A stretch of DNA of 64,000 bases from NCBI GenBank assembly GCA_021739645.1, contig JAIPBL010000016.1, forward strand, positions 1 to 64,000. The letters are read 5' to 3'. The notes under the pieces are model-generated. The model did not search any database, was not told the DNA's origin, and saw only the letters and a program-made list of their open reading frames with translations. This DNA is from Saprospiraceae bacterium (lineage in GTDB: Bacteria > Bacteroidota > Bacteroidia > Chitinophagales > Saprospiraceae). Position numbers and translations under genes: made by a program. This document shows, piece by piece, positions 57,909-64,000 of the stretch (its first letter is position 1; each line of letters begins with the position of its first letter).

Positions 57909-59561
57909 TCATAGCGAAACCCCGCGTTTCCAAGGAATAAAATCATCCTGCCCTAGCCGCTCGGCATGGGTCTGCGCCTCGCCGCTCGCCACTTTTATCA
58001 TAAGTTCCAAAAGTTCCTCCCCCTTAGTTTCGATGCTGTCCTCGCCAGATATGATGGTGCCCGCATCAATGTCAATGATGTCGGGCATTCGACGAGCAAG
58101 TGCTGTGTTCGTGGCCATTTTTATCACTGGCGCAATGGGGTTCCCGGTCGGGGTACCCAGCCCGGTGGTGAACACCACAATGTTGGCACCGCTGCCCACC
58201 TCAGCGGTGGTACTTTCCACGTCGTTGCCGGGAGTGCAGAGCAGCGTGAGGCCGGGGCGAGTGACTTGTTCGGTGTAGTCCAGCACATCGGTCACAGGTG
58301 ATGTACCACCCTTTTTTGCCGCACCCGCCGACTTCATGGCGTCGGTGATCAGGCCGTCTCGGATGTTGCCGGGCGAGGGGTTCATTTCAAAACCCGAGCC
58401 GACCTCCTTGGCCCTCTGGGAGTAGCTACGCATGAGTTGGGCAAATTTTTCGGCGATTTCGTCCGTCGTGCAGCGGTCAATCAGGTTCTGTTCCACGGCA
58501 TTCAGTTCCGGGAATTCGCTCAAAATCATCGTGCCGCCCAATGTTGCTAGCAGGTCAGAGGCGTAGCCCAAGGCCGGGTTGGCGGAAATGCCGCTGAAAC
58601 CGTCTGAGCCGCCGCACTCTAGCCCGACGACGAGCTTGGAGAGTGGCGCCGGGCGGCGTTCCATGCGGTTTGCTTGCGCAAGACCAACGAAAGTCTGCTT
58701 CACTGCATCGGCGATGAAGTCGCGTTCCGACTTGCTTTTTTGTTGTTCCAAAAAGAAAACCGGCTTACCGTGTTGCGGGTCGAAGGCGTCGAGCGCGGAT
58801 CTTAGAAGTTCTATCTGTGCATGTTGGCAGCCGAGGCTGAGCACCGTCGCCCCAGCCACGTTGGAGTTGAGGATGTACCCAGCCAGTAGGCGACAAAGCG
58901 CCTCGGAGTCTTGGCGAGTACCGCCGCAGCCACCGTCATGGGTGAGAAACTTGATACCGTCCACGTTTGGGAACGGACGCCTGCGCTGCACCTCCGAGGC
59001 ATCACGGATAATGTCCGCCGAGAGCAGTTCGTCCTCCCCTACCCCACTGCTGTGTAGCTGGACGAGCTTCGCAACATTCACCGAAAAATGCCGCCCAGTG
59101 AGGTATCCGAGTGGCTCCAGCATGGCATCCCTCACCACTTCTATGTTGCGGTTTTCACAAAAGACCAGCGGTATTACGAGCCAGTAGTTTCTCGTGCCCA
59201 CTTTGCCGTCCGGTCGTTGGAAGCCTTTGAAAGTGCGGTTTTTTAACTTCGAAATATTGGGTTGATGCCAATCCGTTAGGCGCTTGCCTACGCTGTAATT
59301 CTCCGAGTCATGCACTACGTTCTCGCGGCTGATGCGTGTGCCTTTAAGAATGAGCCGCATTGCACGTCCAATTCGTACACCGTACATGATTATTTCATCG
59401 CCTTCGACAAAATCGTGCTCCGCAAACTTGTGCTTGGTTGGAATGTCCTCCAGCAACTCGATGGAATAGCCGTTGCTTGCGACCTGCTCCCCTGCCCGCA
59501 GGTCTTGCAGTGCGGCAATGATGTTGTCGTTGGGATGGACCTTGAGAATATTGCTTTTCAT
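57909..59561 (-). CDS. uxaA: Altronate dehydratase
   Basis: A 550-residue UxaA-family enzyme, dehydrating D-altronate to 2-keto-3-deoxygluconate in galacturonate catabolism. The N-terminal SAF-like part begins ILKVHPNDNIIAALQDL; the catalytic part has RPDGKVGTRNYWLVIPLVFCENRN, THDGGCGGTRQDSEAL, LGCQHAQIELL, LECGGSDGFSGISANPALG and ISGEDSIETKGEELLELMI. It heads the leftward catabolic set uxaA-uxuA-xylB-xylA. Its end is 6 bp from the pseudogene. Confidence 0.92.
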   Translation of the reverse strand: MKSNILKVHPNDNIIAALQDLRAGEQVASNGYSIELLEDIPTKHKFAEHDFVEGDEIIMYGVRIGRAMRLILKGTRISRENVVHDSENYSVGKRLTDWHQPNISKLKNRTFKGFQRPDGKVGTRNYWLVIPLVFCENRNIEVVRDAMLEPLGYLTGRHFSVNVAKLVQLHSSGVGEDELLSADIIRDASEVQRRRPFPNVDGIKFLTHDGGCGGTRQDSEALCRLLAGYILNSNVAGATVLSLGCQHAQIELLRSALDAFDPQHGKPVFFLEQQKSKSERDFIADAVKQTFVGLAQANRMERRPAPLSKLVVGLECGGSDGFSGISANPALGYASDLLATLGGTMILSEFPELNAVEQNLIDRCTTDEIAEKFAQLMRSYSQRAKEVGSGFEMNPSPGNIRDGLITDAMKSAGAAKKGGTSPVTDVLDYTEQVTRPGLTLLCTPGNDVESTTAEVGSGANIVVFTTGLGTPTGNPIAPVIKMATNTALARRMPDIIDIDAGTIISGEDSIETKGEELLELMIKVASGEAQTHAERLGQDDFIPWKRGVSL

Positions 59562-60099
59562 TTTAAACGAGTGGATGAAAGAATGTCGGAATGAGAAAAT
59601 ACCCTAGCCATTTAGCACCATCCAATTTATGTTTTCAGATTTTAAAGTGGAACAACTGAAGTTCGTTCGTTTTGTGGGCATTACCCTCTTTTTTAAGCCT
59701 ATTGCTTTATTTTAAGATTGGCGGAGCATCTTCGGCAAAGTTAGGATTCGTTTTAGAATCTTCATCTGGTAATTATTTTTACTTATTTACTTACTATAAG
59801 TACGTACTTTTCCACTTACATACTTTTAATAATTAAAAACTTATTTAAGTATCTACTCACAAAAAGTAAACACGTACAAACTTAACTGCTATTCAAACTT
59901 ATTTACTTAAATCAGTATTATACTTATCTAAGTTTACTAACTTCGCAATATATTTGAGAATAGATTACATAAGTAAATACTTAGGTAAGTATAAAAAATT
60001 CCAAAAAACGTTCATTTTGAAACAAATATTTACTTAAATAAGTATCGTACTTAAATACTAAGCATTGATAATCAATAAATTATACCATTAAAATTAAAA
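59562..60099. promoter_or_regulatory. Candidate centromere/operator array upstream of parA
   Basis: A 538-bp AT-rich gene-free region densely packed with TACTTA/TAAGTA hexamers. Five ordered inverted pairs are seen: AAGTA-CG-TACTT (59798-59809, everted), ACTTA-TT-TAAGT (59839-59850), TACTTA-TC-TAAGT (59921-59933), TACTTA-GG-TAAGTA (59978-59991) and TACTTA-AA-TAAGTA (60031-60044), with further single hexamers between. Placement directly before parA fits a partition site and/or the autoregulatory operator bound by the ribbon-helix-helix partner. Confidence 0.65.
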
Positions 60100-60756
60100 A
60101 TGATAATTTCAATTACAAATCTTAAAGGTGGGGTAGGGAAGAGTACTTTAGCACAGAATCTAGCTGTTTATTTGGCAAAAAATGGTCGAAGCCTGTGTAT
60201 AGCAGATACCGATGTGGAACAACAAACTTCCGTAAAATGGGGAAGTGTAAGGTCGGCGATAGAAGATGGAAGTGTACCGGAAGTACCCGTTTATCTCATA
60301 AACCCTGACACTATTTCTGATCAAATTTTGAACAAGCTCGGCAAAAAATACGACCTTGTCATCATCGACGGAACACCAGCTTTGACCGAACTAACCACCC
60401 GTATCATCATTATGAGTGACCTAGTTGTCACCCCAATCTTGGCCAGTGCTACGGATGTTTGGGCACTGGATACTTTTCTGAAACGCTACGAAGAAGCCCG
60501 CATCACCAAACAGGCCATGGGAGGCAAGGTGGAACTTTATGTGCTGCTCAACAAGTACAACGAACGAATCAACTTGGATAGAGAGATTGGCGAAGCCATT
60601 GGCGATATGGACGTTAACCTGTTTGACACCAAACTGTCCACCCGCGTCGCCTACAAGGAAGCCACCGTGCAGGGCCTAGGTGTGGCGGAGCTGCGCGATA
60701 AAAATGCGCAAGCAGAGATTGAAGCCATCGCAGCTGAAATCGAAAAACTTTTATAA
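60100..60756 (+). CDS. parA: ParA-family partition ATPase
   Basis: A 218-residue Walker-type ATPase. ISITNLKGGVGKSTLAQNLA holds the deviant Walker A (KGGVGKS, residues 9-15), CIADTDVEQQTSVKWG is the switch region, and YDLVIIDGTPALTE the Walker B. Lack of an N-terminal helix-turn-helix and the small size place it with type Ib plasmid ParAs, which act with a small ribbon-helix-helix ParB-like protein. The gene downstream fits that partner (32-bp gap). Confidence 0.93.
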   Translation: MIISITNLKGGVGKSTLAQNLAVYLAKNGRSLCIADTDVEQQTSVKWGSVRSAIEDGSVPEVPVYLINPDTISDQILNKLGKKYDLVIIDGTPALTELTTRIIIMSDLVVTPILASATDVWALDTFLKRYEEARITKQAMGGKVELYVLLNKYNERINLDREIGEAIGDMDVNLFDTKLSTRVAYKEATVQGLGVAELRDKNAQAEIEAIAAEIEKLL

Positions 60757-60788
60757 ACCTATTTCAGGACTCTTAAAAAATAAGGAAC

Positions 60789-61154
60789 ATGGCAAAGAAG
60801 ACCTTCAACATAAAAAGTACGTTGGCAGTGCAGCCAAAGCAACTCTCCGCTGATGATATTGAAACCGCCATCAAACAAATCCACGACGGAAAGGAGGTTG
60901 CCAATCCTTTAGCTGCACCAAAAAACAAACAAGTGACGTCGTTAACAGAAAAAAGGGCCGCCGAGCTAAAACCCGGCAAAAAATCAAGCAGACGTGGTAG
61001 CAGGGAGGTGGTGGTGGAGGCGCCAGTGAGGAAAGTCCGTTTGTCAGTTGACATCCATCCTGTCTTGCACAAGCGCTTGAAAATAAAAGCCATAGAGCAT
61101 GATTCCGATATTATGCACTACGTCGAGATGTTGATAGCGCGCGACCTTGGATAG
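60789..61154 (+). CDS. ParB-like ribbon-helix-helix centromere-binding protein
   Basis: A 121-residue protein with a flexible, basic, Lys/Ala-rich N-terminal region (about residues 1-75) and a C-terminal ribbon-helix-helix fold (VRKVRLSVDIHPVLHKRLKIKAIEHDSDIMHYVEMLIARDL). This layout matches ParG/type Ib partition proteins that bind the centromere and repress the par promoter while stimulating ParA ATPase through the N-terminal tail. It ends 10 bp before a MITE that separates it from its terminator. Confidence 0.8.
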   Translation: MAKKTFNIKSTLAVQPKQLSADDIETAIKQIHDGKEVANPLAAPKNKQVTSLTEKRAAELKPGKKSSRRGSREVVVEAPVRKVRLSVDIHPVLHKRLKIKAIEHDSDIMHYVEMLIARDLG

Positions 61155-61163
61155 GGTTCAAGG

Positions 61164-61448
61164 TGGGCTGTTAAAAAGGCGAATCAAAAGTTTCCCCTGT
61201 TTTTGAAAAAAATACTATCAGGTTTTGACTTTAGATTTATTCAAACTTTTTTTGAATCACAATCAATCTAGGTGCTTTTTTAAAAAAATTTGAAAGCAGA
61301 TACCTGATTATCAATTGTTTATCCGATACTGTCCCTCTGATTTTCTAAGATGCAAATTTGGCATCAAATTGCAAAGCGACAATGGAAAAAAAAGTGAGTT
61401 GAGTTCCAAAAATGGTACGAAGACTTTAGCCTTCTTTTTAACAGCCCA
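61164..61448. mobile_element. 285-bp MITE with 9-bp target duplication
   Basis: Perfect 15-bp terminal inverted repeats TGGGCTGTTAAAAAG (61164-61178) and CTTTTTAACAGCCCA (61434-61448). The flanking direct repeat GGTTCAAGG (61155-61163 and 61449-61457) is the target-site duplication. AT-rich and without an open frame of note, so it is non-autonomous. It inserted 9 bp after the parB-like stop, between the gene and its terminator. Confidence 0.88.
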
Positions 61449-61485
61449 GGTTCAAGGTTTTGTATTTTTATAATTAAAGAGAATC

Positions 61486-61526
61486 AACACCAACAGAAGT
61501 AGCCTTTTGTTGGTGTTTTCTTTTTT
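61486..61526 (+). terminator. Terminator of the parAB operon
   Basis: Arms AACACCAACA and TGTTGGTGTT around a 12-nt loop, followed by TTCTTTTTT. It lay right behind the parB-like gene before the MITE inserted. Confidence 0.8.
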
Positions 61527-61591
61527 ATTCTTTTTTAAAGCTTTTAGGCTGCTTTATCTAATTGATAATCAGGATATTAGACTACCTAAAA

Positions 61592-61731
61592 GTGAGAGAA
61601 TTGGGATGTAGTGTGAGAGAATTGGGAAATTACAGTGAGAGAATTGGGAAAAAAAAAGAGAAAAATGGGACAAAAAGTGAGAGAATTGGGAAAAAGTGAG
61701 ATATTTGGGACTAAAAGTGAGAAAATTGGGA
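61592..61731 (+). repeat. Iteron array of the replication origin
   Basis: Direct repeats of GTGAGAGAATTGGGA at 61592, 61613, 61635, 61677, 61696 (GTGAGATATTTGGGA) and 61717 (GTGAGAAAATTGGGA), with a degenerate unit at 61657. Spacing is 19-22 bp, about two helical turns, so the sites face the same side. This is the typical origin signature for Rep_3 plasmids and lies just upstream of rep. Confidence 0.9.
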
Positions 61732-61781
61732 AATAACACATGCTTTTAAGGGATGCTCTATGCGTTTCGAATATGATTATT

Positions 61782-61825
61782 TCCCAAATCCCTCACTTTT
61801 GTCGATTGTGTCCCAAATCTCTCAC
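61782..61825 (-). promoter_or_regulatory. Inverted iterons in the rep promoter (autorepression operator)
   Basis: Two iterons in opposite orientation, TCCCAAATCCCTCAC (61782-61796) and TCCCAAATCTCTCAC (61811-61825), 11 bp before the rep start. In Rep_3 plasmids such inverted copies are bound by Rep dimers to repress rep. Confidence 0.75.
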
Positions 61826-61836
61826 TTTTAGCAGCC

Positions 61837-63276
61837 ATGGGGAAAAGAAGACGAAAAAGTGGCGGCATCGTCGTCATCAAAAAAGCCAACCAACTCATAG
61901 AGTCACGTTACCGGTTCGATATCTGGGAAACGCGGTTCTTCCTGTCCATACTTTCACAGATTCGGCGCGACGACAATGACTTCCAAGTTTACCGCGTTTG
62001 GTACAAAGACGTTATCAGAGCCTTCAGCCTAAAATCCAATCAATCTTACCACCTGCTGCGTGAAGCTGCAAAGAGCATTATGAGCAAGTCTTTCTTTGTC
62101 AGCTATGAGAAAGATGGTACAAGCCGCGAGGTGCAGTACCATATTTTGCGCAAGATAGACTACCTGAAGGATGGTAATGAGTCGAAGGGGAGGGAGAGCC
62201 AAGAATATATTGATGTGACTATTGAGCAAGAAATGAAGCCGTTTTTCCTCCAACTCCAGCGGAACTTCACTGCATACGACCTTCGCAACGTCGTTAAACT
62301 AGGTGCGTACCCCATTCGCGTGTACGAGCTTTTGAAGCAATACGAAAGCATCGGGGAGCGCACCATGGACATTGAGGAAATCAAGCGGATGTTTGAAATA
62401 ACAAAGGAATACCAGCGATTCCCTGACTTCTTTCGCTGGGTAGTCAGCCCGGCCATTAAGGAAATAAACTCGCATACTGACCTGCTCGTCACGGACTGCA
62501 TCAAAGTGAAAGAGGGTAAAAAAGTGGTTAGCCTGCGTTTCATTTTTCGAAGGAAACCCGATGAAGATGTGCCACATACGCGGAGTAGGGTTGTGCCAAA
62601 GCCGCTTGAGTTGCCCTTCCAAGCTAACGAACTGAAAACCGTTGCAGAAGTATCGGATGCTTTACCAAAAAAGACAAAGGATTTGCTTTTCAACAAGTTC
62701 CAGCAAGAAGTCGTGCAGCAATTCGGCGTTACTGCCACCACATTTTTGGAACTGCTTGACGGCTGCACGGAGAAACAGGTAGGACAGGCTATTCGCGTTA
62801 CCCGCCGAGCGAAGGTGAACAACCAGATAAAGACCAGCGTACCCGGATTTTTCATCAATGCGCTTCGCAACGGCTACACCGACCCGAAGGAAGAGCAAAT
62901 GCGGCGTGAGGTGCAAGAAGTTGAGAAGGGTAGGGTAGTGCTGGCAATTCGACAGGAGGTAGATACCCTTCGAGAGGAAGCTGCAGACCTCATCAACGAG
63001 CAAATAAAGCTGCTCACCGTTAGCCAGCCTGACATTACAACTACTGCTATTGACAGCCTAAAAGACAATCCTTACGCAAAGTTGATAGTCGAAAAAAAGG
63101 AAAAAACGGCGAAGAAGGAATTAGAGCTAGAAGACTACCGCCGGGATAAAATACTCCGCGACCTCGTGCGCCAGGCCATCGTCGAACAACACCCTGATAC
63201 TTTTGCGACTATACTCTCTGAATACGAACCCAAGATAAAACTACTGGAAGAAAAGATTAAGAATGTGAGTAGATAA
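61837..63276 (+). CDS. Rep_3-family replication initiator
   Basis: A 479-residue initiator with the twin winged-helix layout of RepB/Rep_3 proteins: KKANQLIESRYRFDIWETRFFLSILSQI opens the first domain, NFTAYDLRNVVKLGAYPIRVYELLKQYESIG and WVVSPAIKEINSHTDLLVT mark the second. The C-terminal 200 residues are longer than usual and highly charged/coiled (EKKEKTAKKELELEDYRRD). It binds the upstream iterons. Its stop codon lies inside a 26-bp palindrome. Confidence 0.92.
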   Translation: MGKRRRKSGGIVVIKKANQLIESRYRFDIWETRFFLSILSQIRRDDNDFQVYRVWYKDVIRAFSLKSNQSYHLLREAAKSIMSKSFFVSYEKDGTSREVQYHILRKIDYLKDGNESKGRESQEYIDVTIEQEMKPFFLQLQRNFTAYDLRNVVKLGAYPIRVYELLKQYESIGERTMDIEEIKRMFEITKEYQRFPDFFRWVVSPAIKEINSHTDLLVTDCIKVKEGKKVVSLRFIFRRKPDEDVPHTRSRVVPKPLELPFQANELKTVAEVSDALPKKTKDLLFNKFQQEVVQQFGVTATTFLELLDGCTEKQVGQAIRVTRRAKVNNQIKTSVPGFFINALRNGYTDPKEEQMRREVQEVEKGRVVLAIRQEVDTLREEAADLINEQIKLLTVSQPDITTTAIDSLKDNPYAKLIVEKKEKTAKKELELEDYRRDKILRDLVRQAIVEQHPDTFATILSEYEPKIKLLEEKIKNVSR

Positions 63277-63293
63277 GTACGTACTTATCTACT
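63268..63293. promoter_or_regulatory. 26-bp perfect palindrome over the rep stop codon
   Basis: AGTAGATAAGTAC followed by its exact complement. The core TAAGTA-CG-TACTTA is the everted form of the motif array upstream of parA, so it is probably bound by the same protein. It overlaps the TAA of rep at 63274-63276. Confidence 0.8.
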
Positions 63294-63456
63294 TAAATAT
63301 TTTTAACACTTTTAACTTACGGTACACGTACTTTATCTGGTATTCGACTAAGTCTCCACAAGCGATTTCCACTTTCGTTTATTCAAAAATGGATTGGAAC
63401 GGCAAGTTGAAAGCAACGCCGTTTCATCAGAGCATCAAACAAGAAGGAATTTCGTT

Positions 63457-63531
63457 ATGAAATATAACCACCACCAAATTTACACCATGTCTAACCTAAC
63501 CAACATTATCGTCGTCAATCCACCAGATTGA
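63457..63531 (+). CDS. ilv leader peptide (attenuator)
   Basis: A 24-codon open frame preceded by AAGAAGGA 8 nt upstream of the ATG at 63457. A second in-frame ATG lies at 63487 (14 codons). It ends ...SNLTNIIVVNPPD, with consecutive Ile-Ile-Val-Val codons at 63505-63516, the products of the pathway ilvD serves. Stalling at these codons when Ile/Val-tRNA is scarce would control the hairpins that follow. The stop codon overlaps one arm of the predicted antiterminator. Confidence 0.75.
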   Translation: MKYNHHQIYTMSNLTNIIVVNPPD

Positions 63532-63570
63532 GAAAGGAAGTTTTTCGCAGAAAAACAAAGTGCCTTTCTC
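63530..63570 (+). promoter_or_regulatory. Predicted antiterminator hairpin of the ilv attenuator
   Basis: GAGAAAGG (63530-63537, overlapping the leader stop) can pair with CCTTTCTC (63563-63570). The second arm overlaps the 5' side of the terminator stem, so the two structures exclude each other. Confidence 0.65.
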
Positions 63571-63598
63571 GACGGCAACGGGAAAGGCACTTTGTTTT
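63553..63598 (+). terminator. Attenuator terminator before ilvD
   Basis: Perfect 16-bp stem AAACAAAGTGCCTTTC (63553-63568) and its complement (63582-63597), 13-nt loop, ending in a T-rich run (TTTGTTTTT). It lies 21 bp after the leader stop and about 127 bp before ilvD. Confidence 0.85.
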
Positions 63599-63660
63599 TG
63601 AAATAGATTGATTGTTTATTTTTGAAGTGCCACATCACACATAAAACCTTGGAAATCAGC

Positions 63661-63716
63661 CATTTCATCAACAATCAAAAATTATGTAACCAACATTCGT
63701 CAATCAAAAAAACATC
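63661..63716 (+). repeat. Diverged 46-bp dispersed repeat, copy D (ilvD leader)
   Basis: Runs CATTTCATCAACAATCA ... CGTCAATCAAAAAAACATC, similar to copies A-C around susD (21081-21755), and ends 8 bp before the ilvD start, the same relation as copy C to susD. Confidence 0.5.
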
Positions 63717-63724
63717 AAAATAGC

Positions 63725-64000
63725 GTGAGCAACAACCTAAAAAAATACTCCTCCCTCGTCTCCACCTCCGACACCCAGCCCGGCTCCCAGGCCATGCTCT
63801 ACGGCGCGGGCCTCACCGAGCAGGACATGCTGCAGCCCTTCGTCGGCATCTGTAGCAACTGGTACGAGGGCAACCCCTGCAACCGACACCTCCGCACCCT
63901 CGCCGCCGACATCCGCAAGAGCGTGCGGCAGGAGGGGCTGACCGGGCTGGAGTTCAACACCATCGGCGTCAGCGACGGCATCTCCAACGGCACGGAGGGC
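63725..64000 (+). CDS. ilvD: Dihydroxy-acid dehydratase, N-terminal part
   Basis: The first 92 codons from a GTG start at 63725; the window ends inside the gene. SQAMLYGAGLTEQDMLQPFVGICSNWYEGNPCNRHL includes the first Fe-S cysteine motif (GNPCN), and LEFNTIGVSDGISNGTEG the following signature (most family members have GISMG at this point; here Asn replaces Met). The enzyme makes the 2-keto acids of valine and isoleucine. An attenuator with an Ile-Ile-Val-Val leader precedes it, supporting the assignment. GTG is the only start giving a family-like N-terminus. Confidence 0.9.
   Translation, partial: MSNNLKKYSSLVSTSDTQPGSQAMLYGAGLTEQDMLQPFVGICSNWYEGNPCNRHLRTLAADIRKSVRQEGLTGLEFNTIGVSDGISNGTEG

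Follow-up and report, generated by a model that had tools for sequence, protein, structure and literature searches.

A probable Ile/Val attenuator left with ilvD after loss of its operon in a Saprospiraceae bacterium

In Escherichia coli and Salmonella, the ilvGMEDA and ilvBN operons combine an Ile/Val-rich leader peptide with mutually exclusive antiterminator and terminator structures and with ilv genes downstream. A modelling paper lists the leaders of both operons as attenuated (PMC1183508). Outside the enteric bacteria, the Corynebacterium ilvBNC leader (ilvB-II motif) and the ilvB-OMG motif are described as having a branched-chain-rich leader ORF, for which attenuation has been proposed (PMC10272879). 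A 2021 transcriptome study of Flavobacterium psychrophilum reported strong clues that amino acid operons are attenuated through leader peptides (PMC9723704), and in Bacteroides thetaiotaomicron the long 5' UTRs reportedly contain short frames resembling the leader peptides of attenuators (PMC7366714). A 2010 survey knew of leader-peptide systems in Proteobacteria and Actinobacteria alone, besides its own Firmicutes case (PMC2965389).

The element described here lies upstream of ilvD in a DNA stretch of 64,000 nucleotides, analysed as a whole and referred to as the window. Like the enteric leaders, it consists of an Ile/Val-rich leader, an exclusive antiterminator/terminator pair and ilv sequence downstream. 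It differs from them in its leader of 14 codons (18–19 in close relatives) and in a hairpin inside the antiterminator. Further differences are that a Shine–Dalgarno-like 4-mer stands upstream of just 2 of 63 family leaders, that the element is internal to a leu/ilv operon in the related genomes G003 and G006, and that the partner genes of the window's ilvD were not found. F. psychrophilum belongs to the same phylum and the same mechanism is proposed there; the main text of that paper does not mention ilv (PMC9723704), whereas ilv attenuators are here delineated with controls. The ilvB-II and ilvB-OMG motifs are alike in placing a leader ORF before ilv genes but occur in other lineages, form other structures and precede ilvB (PMC10272879). 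The features of the locus are as follows.

60100–60756: ParA-like ATPase gene, in a row with the next two
60789–61154: gene for a ribbon-helix-helix-like protein (below cut-off)
61837–63276: Rep_3 initiator gene
63362–63461, plus strand: remnant of an MntA-like nucleotidyltransferase gene, its 3' end (88 of 100 bases identical to G006)
63487–63531, plus strand: leader ORF MSNLTNIIVVNPPD with its stop, 14 codons, conserved start (from sequence; the ATG context matches G001, G003, G006 and G011)
63505–63516, plus strand: regulatory codons ATT ATC GTC GTC (Ile-Ile-Val-Val), from sequence
63515–63531, plus strand: small hairpin over the stop codon, arms TCAATC and GATTGA, six pairs in the window, candidate 1:2 pause or protector hairpin
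63530–63537, plus strand: arm 2, GAGAAAGG, 5' arm of the antiterminator, overlapping the leader stop; 8 of 8 pairs with 63563–63570
63540–63556, plus strand: seven-pair hairpin within the antiterminator, paired in 5 of 5 sequences, one pair changed from C-G to T-A
63551–63599, plus strand: intrinsic terminator with a 20-pair stem, a 9-base loop and a T-rich tract in the 3' arm (from sequence and folding)
63563–63570, plus strand: arm 3, CCTTTCTC, common to antiterminator and terminator (from the pairing comparison in the family and close relatives)
63617–63624, plus strand: TATTTTTG, match to TANNTTTG, candidate promoter bypassing the attenuator; sole match in 63277–63724, with TTTG 16 and 22 bases upstream
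63725–64000, on to contig position 65404, plus strand: ilvD, dihydroxy-acid dehydratase, 559 aa, GTG start (NCBIfam equivalog TIGR00110, 728.6 bits, cut-off 618.15)

The earlier note had read the leader as a 24-codon frame with Ile-Ile-Val-Val. Such a frame can be read from the sequence, from ATG 63457 to TGA 63529–63531 with the C-terminus TNIIVVNPPD, and its codons and stop are in place. The conserved frame is shorter: the start common to the window and its relatives is the in-frame ATG at 63487. The 3' end of a nucleotidyltransferase gene occupies 63362–63461, so that the start at 63457 overlaps its stop; MSNLTNIIVVNPPD is accordingly the best reading of the leader. In G006 the corresponding gene and a VapC-like gene lie between leuB and the attenuator (L114 4660–5675); both score below their NCBIfam cut-offs, the nucleotidyltransferase reaching 31.6 bits against MntA_antitoxin (E 1.2e-7, cut-off 60). 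Both look like toxin–antitoxin genes adjoining the attenuator. Small antisense frames between attenuator and ilvD in G011 and G001 (L016, L144) also look like toxin–antitoxin genes.

The base pairing is complete in the window. As the earlier note had proposed, the arm that overlaps the stop pairs with 63563–63570 over all eight positions. The terminator, described there as a perfect 16-bp stem at 63553–63597, is indeed present, but its stem is longer: 63551–63570 form 20 consecutive pairs with 63580–63599, one of them G-U. Folded separately, the terminator has −30.9 kcal/mol and the antiterminator −14.7 kcal/mol, and the 325 bases from 63400 to 63724 fold more stably than shuffled sequences (z −2.42). 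A simple terminator scan left the window's terminator off its list, its loop presumably being above the 8 bases allowed. The Rfam covariance search of 59500–64000 gave no match at gathering score. At the terminator, some matches (PyrG_leader, RsaJ, miRNA families) stayed below that score and were dismissed as hairpin resemblances. The same search of 10 related loci gave a single match at gathering score, a Flavo-1 RNA in Aquimarina (L065, 7039–7154), which lies outside the attenuators.

The element is common to the window and to G001, G003, G006 and G011; in 9 of the 13 other genomes of the genus no DNA match to it was found. Every pair between arms 2 and 3 forms in the window, G003, G006 and G011; G001 has one mismatch. 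The window has T-A at the terminator pair 63561–63589, where all four relatives have C-G; in each of them, 2–3 of the window's 20 terminator pairs fail to form as aligned. The hairpin over the stop codon is complete in the window, G003 and G011 and has one mismatch each in G006 and G001; its pair 63519–63527 varies between T-A, T-G and C-G. The leaders of these five sequences have 14, 18, 19, 19 and 19 codons and so differ by whole codons, which supports leader translation indirectly, as judged from sequence. The window leader holds 4 Ile/Val codons, against 8 in each of the four relatives.

We surveyed the upstream regions of 107 ilvD loci, 27 of them from the window's own genome and 26 relatives and 80 from named genomes. 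Four loci were excluded before counting: L029, L030 and L031 as distant or fragmentary PF00920 matches, and L002 as a duplicate of the window's own locus. PF00920 match places without an assigned locus fell outside the scan. To score as positive, a region needed a reading frame in which Ile and Val made up 7 or more of 12 codons, and a terminator no more than 90 bases after that frame. Thirty-five of the 107 upstream regions were positive, compared with none of 979 control windows (0/107 antisense, 0/328 downstream on each strand and 0/216 far upstream on the opposite strand). Far-upstream windows on the same strand, where operon heads can lie, were positive in 18 of 216 cases. Taking all upstream sequence, we count 63 attenuators in 54 of the 107 loci. 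This count includes the window by name, with its score of 4 under the 7-of-12 threshold, and its rows are not all independent: L025 and L039 have one leader sequence in common, L046 and L060 another. The other 53 loci gave no attenuator at threshold, with weaker candidates in L010, L034 and L073.

Leaders of this family have a median length of 21 codons, an ATG start in 62 of 63 cases and a gap of 18–37 bases between stop and terminator. Duplexes of arm 2 with arm 3 average −13.4 kcal/mol over the 63 attenuators, compared with −6.7 kcal/mol for arms shuffled by single bases and −8.5 kcal/mol for swapped partners. The duplex reaches p 0.05 or better in 49 of them and fails to beat the shuffles in 14. 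Arm sequences are specific to clades: GAGAAAGG/CCTTTCTC in the window, TGATACAG/CTGTATCA in Gelidibacter and Flagellimonas (L077, L099), and GGAGGTGG with a CCGCCTC arm in two bins titled Bacteroidetes and Chitinophagaceae (L090, L104). The comparison of ilvD 5' regions that the earlier note had called for thus supports its mechanism as the origin and design of the element: Ile/Val leaders are kept, their lengths change by whole codons, and the arms covary across relatives. An amino-acid-specific attenuator architecture is thereby documented in Bacteroidota; Lopatovskaya 2010 may already list Bacteroidetes. Switches of this kind need a ribosome close behind RNA polymerase, and they would make transcription–translation coupling in Bacteroidota testable, here for leaders that mostly have no Shine–Dalgarno-like motif.

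The most novel by-product of the analysis is the serial arrangement of attenuators. Two complete Ile/Val attenuators follow each other upstream of ilvD in 9 of the 54 loci (L009, L017, L037, L065, L066, L074, L081, L092 and L108), with starts 132–165 bases apart. Two of these loci, L009 and L017, belong to relatives of the window's family; the others come from Tenacibaculum, Aquimarina, three Chryseobacterium, Gaetbulibacter and an Ignavibacteriae bin. In Salmonella, mgtCBR is a known case of tandem attenuators (PMC3641672). Among the matches listed, which come from open-licence papers, no report of serial attenuators for ilv genes in Bacteroidota was found.

Genes that flank the element in the relatives G003 and G006 are missing from the window's locus. 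In G003 and G006 the order is leuA-leuC-leuD-leuB-[attenuator]-ilvD-ilvB-ilvN-ilvC, so that the attenuator is internal to the operon. In G011, the leu genes, the attenuator and ilvD are on one contig and ilvB, ilvN and ilvC on another. The leu genes and remaining neighbours of the relatives were named by reading translations; ilvB, ilvN and ilvC were assigned by searches. A leader with a terminator upstream of leuA was found neither in G003 nor in G006, where a weak chance frame was the only candidate. Both flanks of the locus on the window contig align to G003: Rep_3 and upstream genes before it, and an OsmC-like gene, a response regulator and a kinase (the last two named by reading translations) after it. 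From the leu-ilv operon of G003, just the attenuator and ilvD align to the window contig.

Searches of the window's own genome (G000), which is 99.68% complete by the tool's figure, point in the same direction. No match was found there to ilvC (PF01450) or ilvN (PF10369), for which 28 and 22, respectively, of the 60 genomes searched, own included, gave matches. The search for ilvB, positive in G003, G006 and G011, found none in G000, nor did that for the LeuA dimer domain, positive in 14 of 14 control genomes. The loss of leuB, leuC and leuD refers to this locus, the genome-wide searches having covered the LeuA dimer domain, ilvB, ilvC and ilvN. Two KARI_N matches in G000 (PF07991, E 7.4e-6 and 5.0e-4, both over the family cut-off) were rejected as IlvC, given that PF01450 had no match; the frame with the better one presumably resembles an adenosylhomocysteinase. 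Since these searches of the genome found neither ilvB, ilvC or ilvN nor the LeuA dimer domain, we regard the attenuator and ilvD as the orphan of an eroded operon. The locus may instead be misassembled, but ilvB, ilvC and ilvN were not found on other contigs either. As a separate observation, HisG (PF01634) was likewise not found in G000, and 13 of 14 control genomes were positive, so that a histidine auxotrophy is possible too.

Considering the observed anatomy, conservation, covariation and synteny together with the missing partner genes, we conclude with good confidence that the element is, by descent and anatomy, a ribosome-mediated Ile/Val attenuator that was orphaned with ilvD when the flanking genes were lost in place. 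It is a new instance of a long-known type of switch and matches no Rfam family at gathering score. The switching itself we infer from the analogous trp, his and ilv attenuators of enteric bacteria. When charged Ile or Val tRNA is scarce, a ribosome would stall on the Ile/Val codons, arm 2 would pair with arm 3 and RNA polymerase would read on. With charged tRNA plentiful, a ribosome at the stop would cover arm 2 and leave arm 3 to form the terminator. The ancestral role would have been that of an internal attenuator setting the transcription that passes into ilvDBNC. Once the flanking leu genes and ilvBNC had been lost in place, the attenuator would have remained alone with ilvD, an orphan whose run of regulatory codons has become shorter, and a promoter near 63617 may bypass the attenuator. 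The ribosome-mediated Ile/Val attenuation proposed in the earlier note accordingly holds for origin and design, that is for the conserved leader, its whole-codon changes and the covarying arms; the working pathway control that it implied does not follow, as the partner genes were not found.

The strongest competing account accepts this origin and denies present function alone. The element would once have been an attenuator and would no longer regulate, ilvD being transcribed barely or from a promoter TTTG...TATTTTTG at 63617. We lean slightly towards this account and rate the function of the attenuator in this genome today at slightly under even. The site at 63617 matches TANNTTTG, which we take to be the −7 motif of Bacteroidota. 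In two-part form, with TTG upstream, it occurs in 0.3% of shuffles of 63571–63724 and in 2 of 37 terminator-to-ilvD rows. No TANNTTTG is found between Rep_3 and the window leader; in the family, 22 of 63 leaders have TANNTTTG in the 150 bases before them, at a distance of 12 to 55 bases from the start (11% of shuffles), and 12 of 63 have it with TTG upstream (3.7% of shuffles). A transcription start downstream of 63600 is, on the strength of these motifs, a live possibility. On the other hand, TANNTTTG alone appears in 10 of the 37 rows (8 loci), and the −33-like TTTG upstream of 63617 sits inside the 3' arm of the terminator. As this TTTG is part of the T-rich tract of the terminator itself, chance has likely helped at the site.

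Other evidence on present function is similarly divided. There is no obvious need for control of a pathway whose partner genes are missing, and the Ile/Val run is half that of the relatives. Many regulatory codons are linked to sensitivity by modelling and by an experiment cited with it (PMC1183508). Because many regulatory codons give sensitivity and the window has 4 instead of 8, the window element would now be expected to respond just weakly to Ile/Val. Against complete decay, all pairs between arms 2 and 3 and within the terminator are intact in the window, including the compensatory terminator difference from the relatives. The window ilvD is free of internal stops (dN 0.030 and dS 0.32 to G006), and its branch has 28 silent to 5 replacing changes, like the branches of relatives (23:3 and 28:7). 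This pattern shows purifying selection on ilvD, which fits recent pathway loss and a new role alike and cannot tell them apart. Persistence is no proof of use, since in G001 an attenuator with the leader MPNVTNISAIVIIVVNPPG persists about 850 bases before an apparent N-terminal piece of a broken ilvD. In the same genome, with its assembly 89% complete, PF00920 and ilvB were not found; the PF00920 matches of G009 were all fragmentary. The genus thus offers a graded series of erosion, from the intact operon through attenuator plus ilvD to attenuator plus broken ilvD.

It is doubtful, if well worth considering, that attenuator and ilvD were acquired by transfer or recombination from a relative like G006 or G011, perhaps into an emptied locus. 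The window ilvD is 91.4% and 90.5% identical to those of G006 and G011, compared with 85.2% and 84.9% for an rpoB region, and the nucleotidyltransferase remnant matches G006. This is a thin comparison of one gene with one rpoB region, and the syntenic position between Rep_3 and the OsmC-like gene argues for loss in place. Less probable again is a combined scenario. Ile/Val attenuation would be widespread in Bacteroidota without Shine–Dalgarno initiation, often serial or leu-ilv-internal for separate tuning of ilv, and the window switch would be kept because ilvD, under purifying selection, serves another reaction. Finally, it is highly implausible that the hairpin merely serves as terminator for the preceding transcription unit, with an Ile/Val frame that arose by chance: the stem is A- and T-rich at its ends and matches itself on the opposite strand, and the window leader alone (4 Ile/Val in the 12 codons before the terminator) is just mildly unusual, with scores of at least 4 in 16 of 979 control windows, but whole-codon indels occur in the window's own clade and leader, stop-overlapping arm and terminator recur before ilv genes across Bacteroidota with their complementarity kept, so that the relatives, and not the window leader alone, make the case against chance.

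The neighbouring Rep_3 and ParA-like genes had been taken for an adjoining plasmid-type origin. Both are syntenic in G003, where the stretch aligns near the leu-ilv operon, and they are thus no evidence that ilvD moved onto a plasmid; such a move, which these genes had suggested, was rejected on that ground. The stretch may belong to a chromid or be a former plasmid locus that became fixed. Many AAGTA/TACTT palindromes (for example AAGTACGTACTT) lie at 59790–60060 before parA and at 63266–63295 after Rep_3, and look like partition or initiator sites. Short repeats of the GTGAGAGAATTGGGA type, iteron-like in appearance, precede Rep_3 at 61590–61830.
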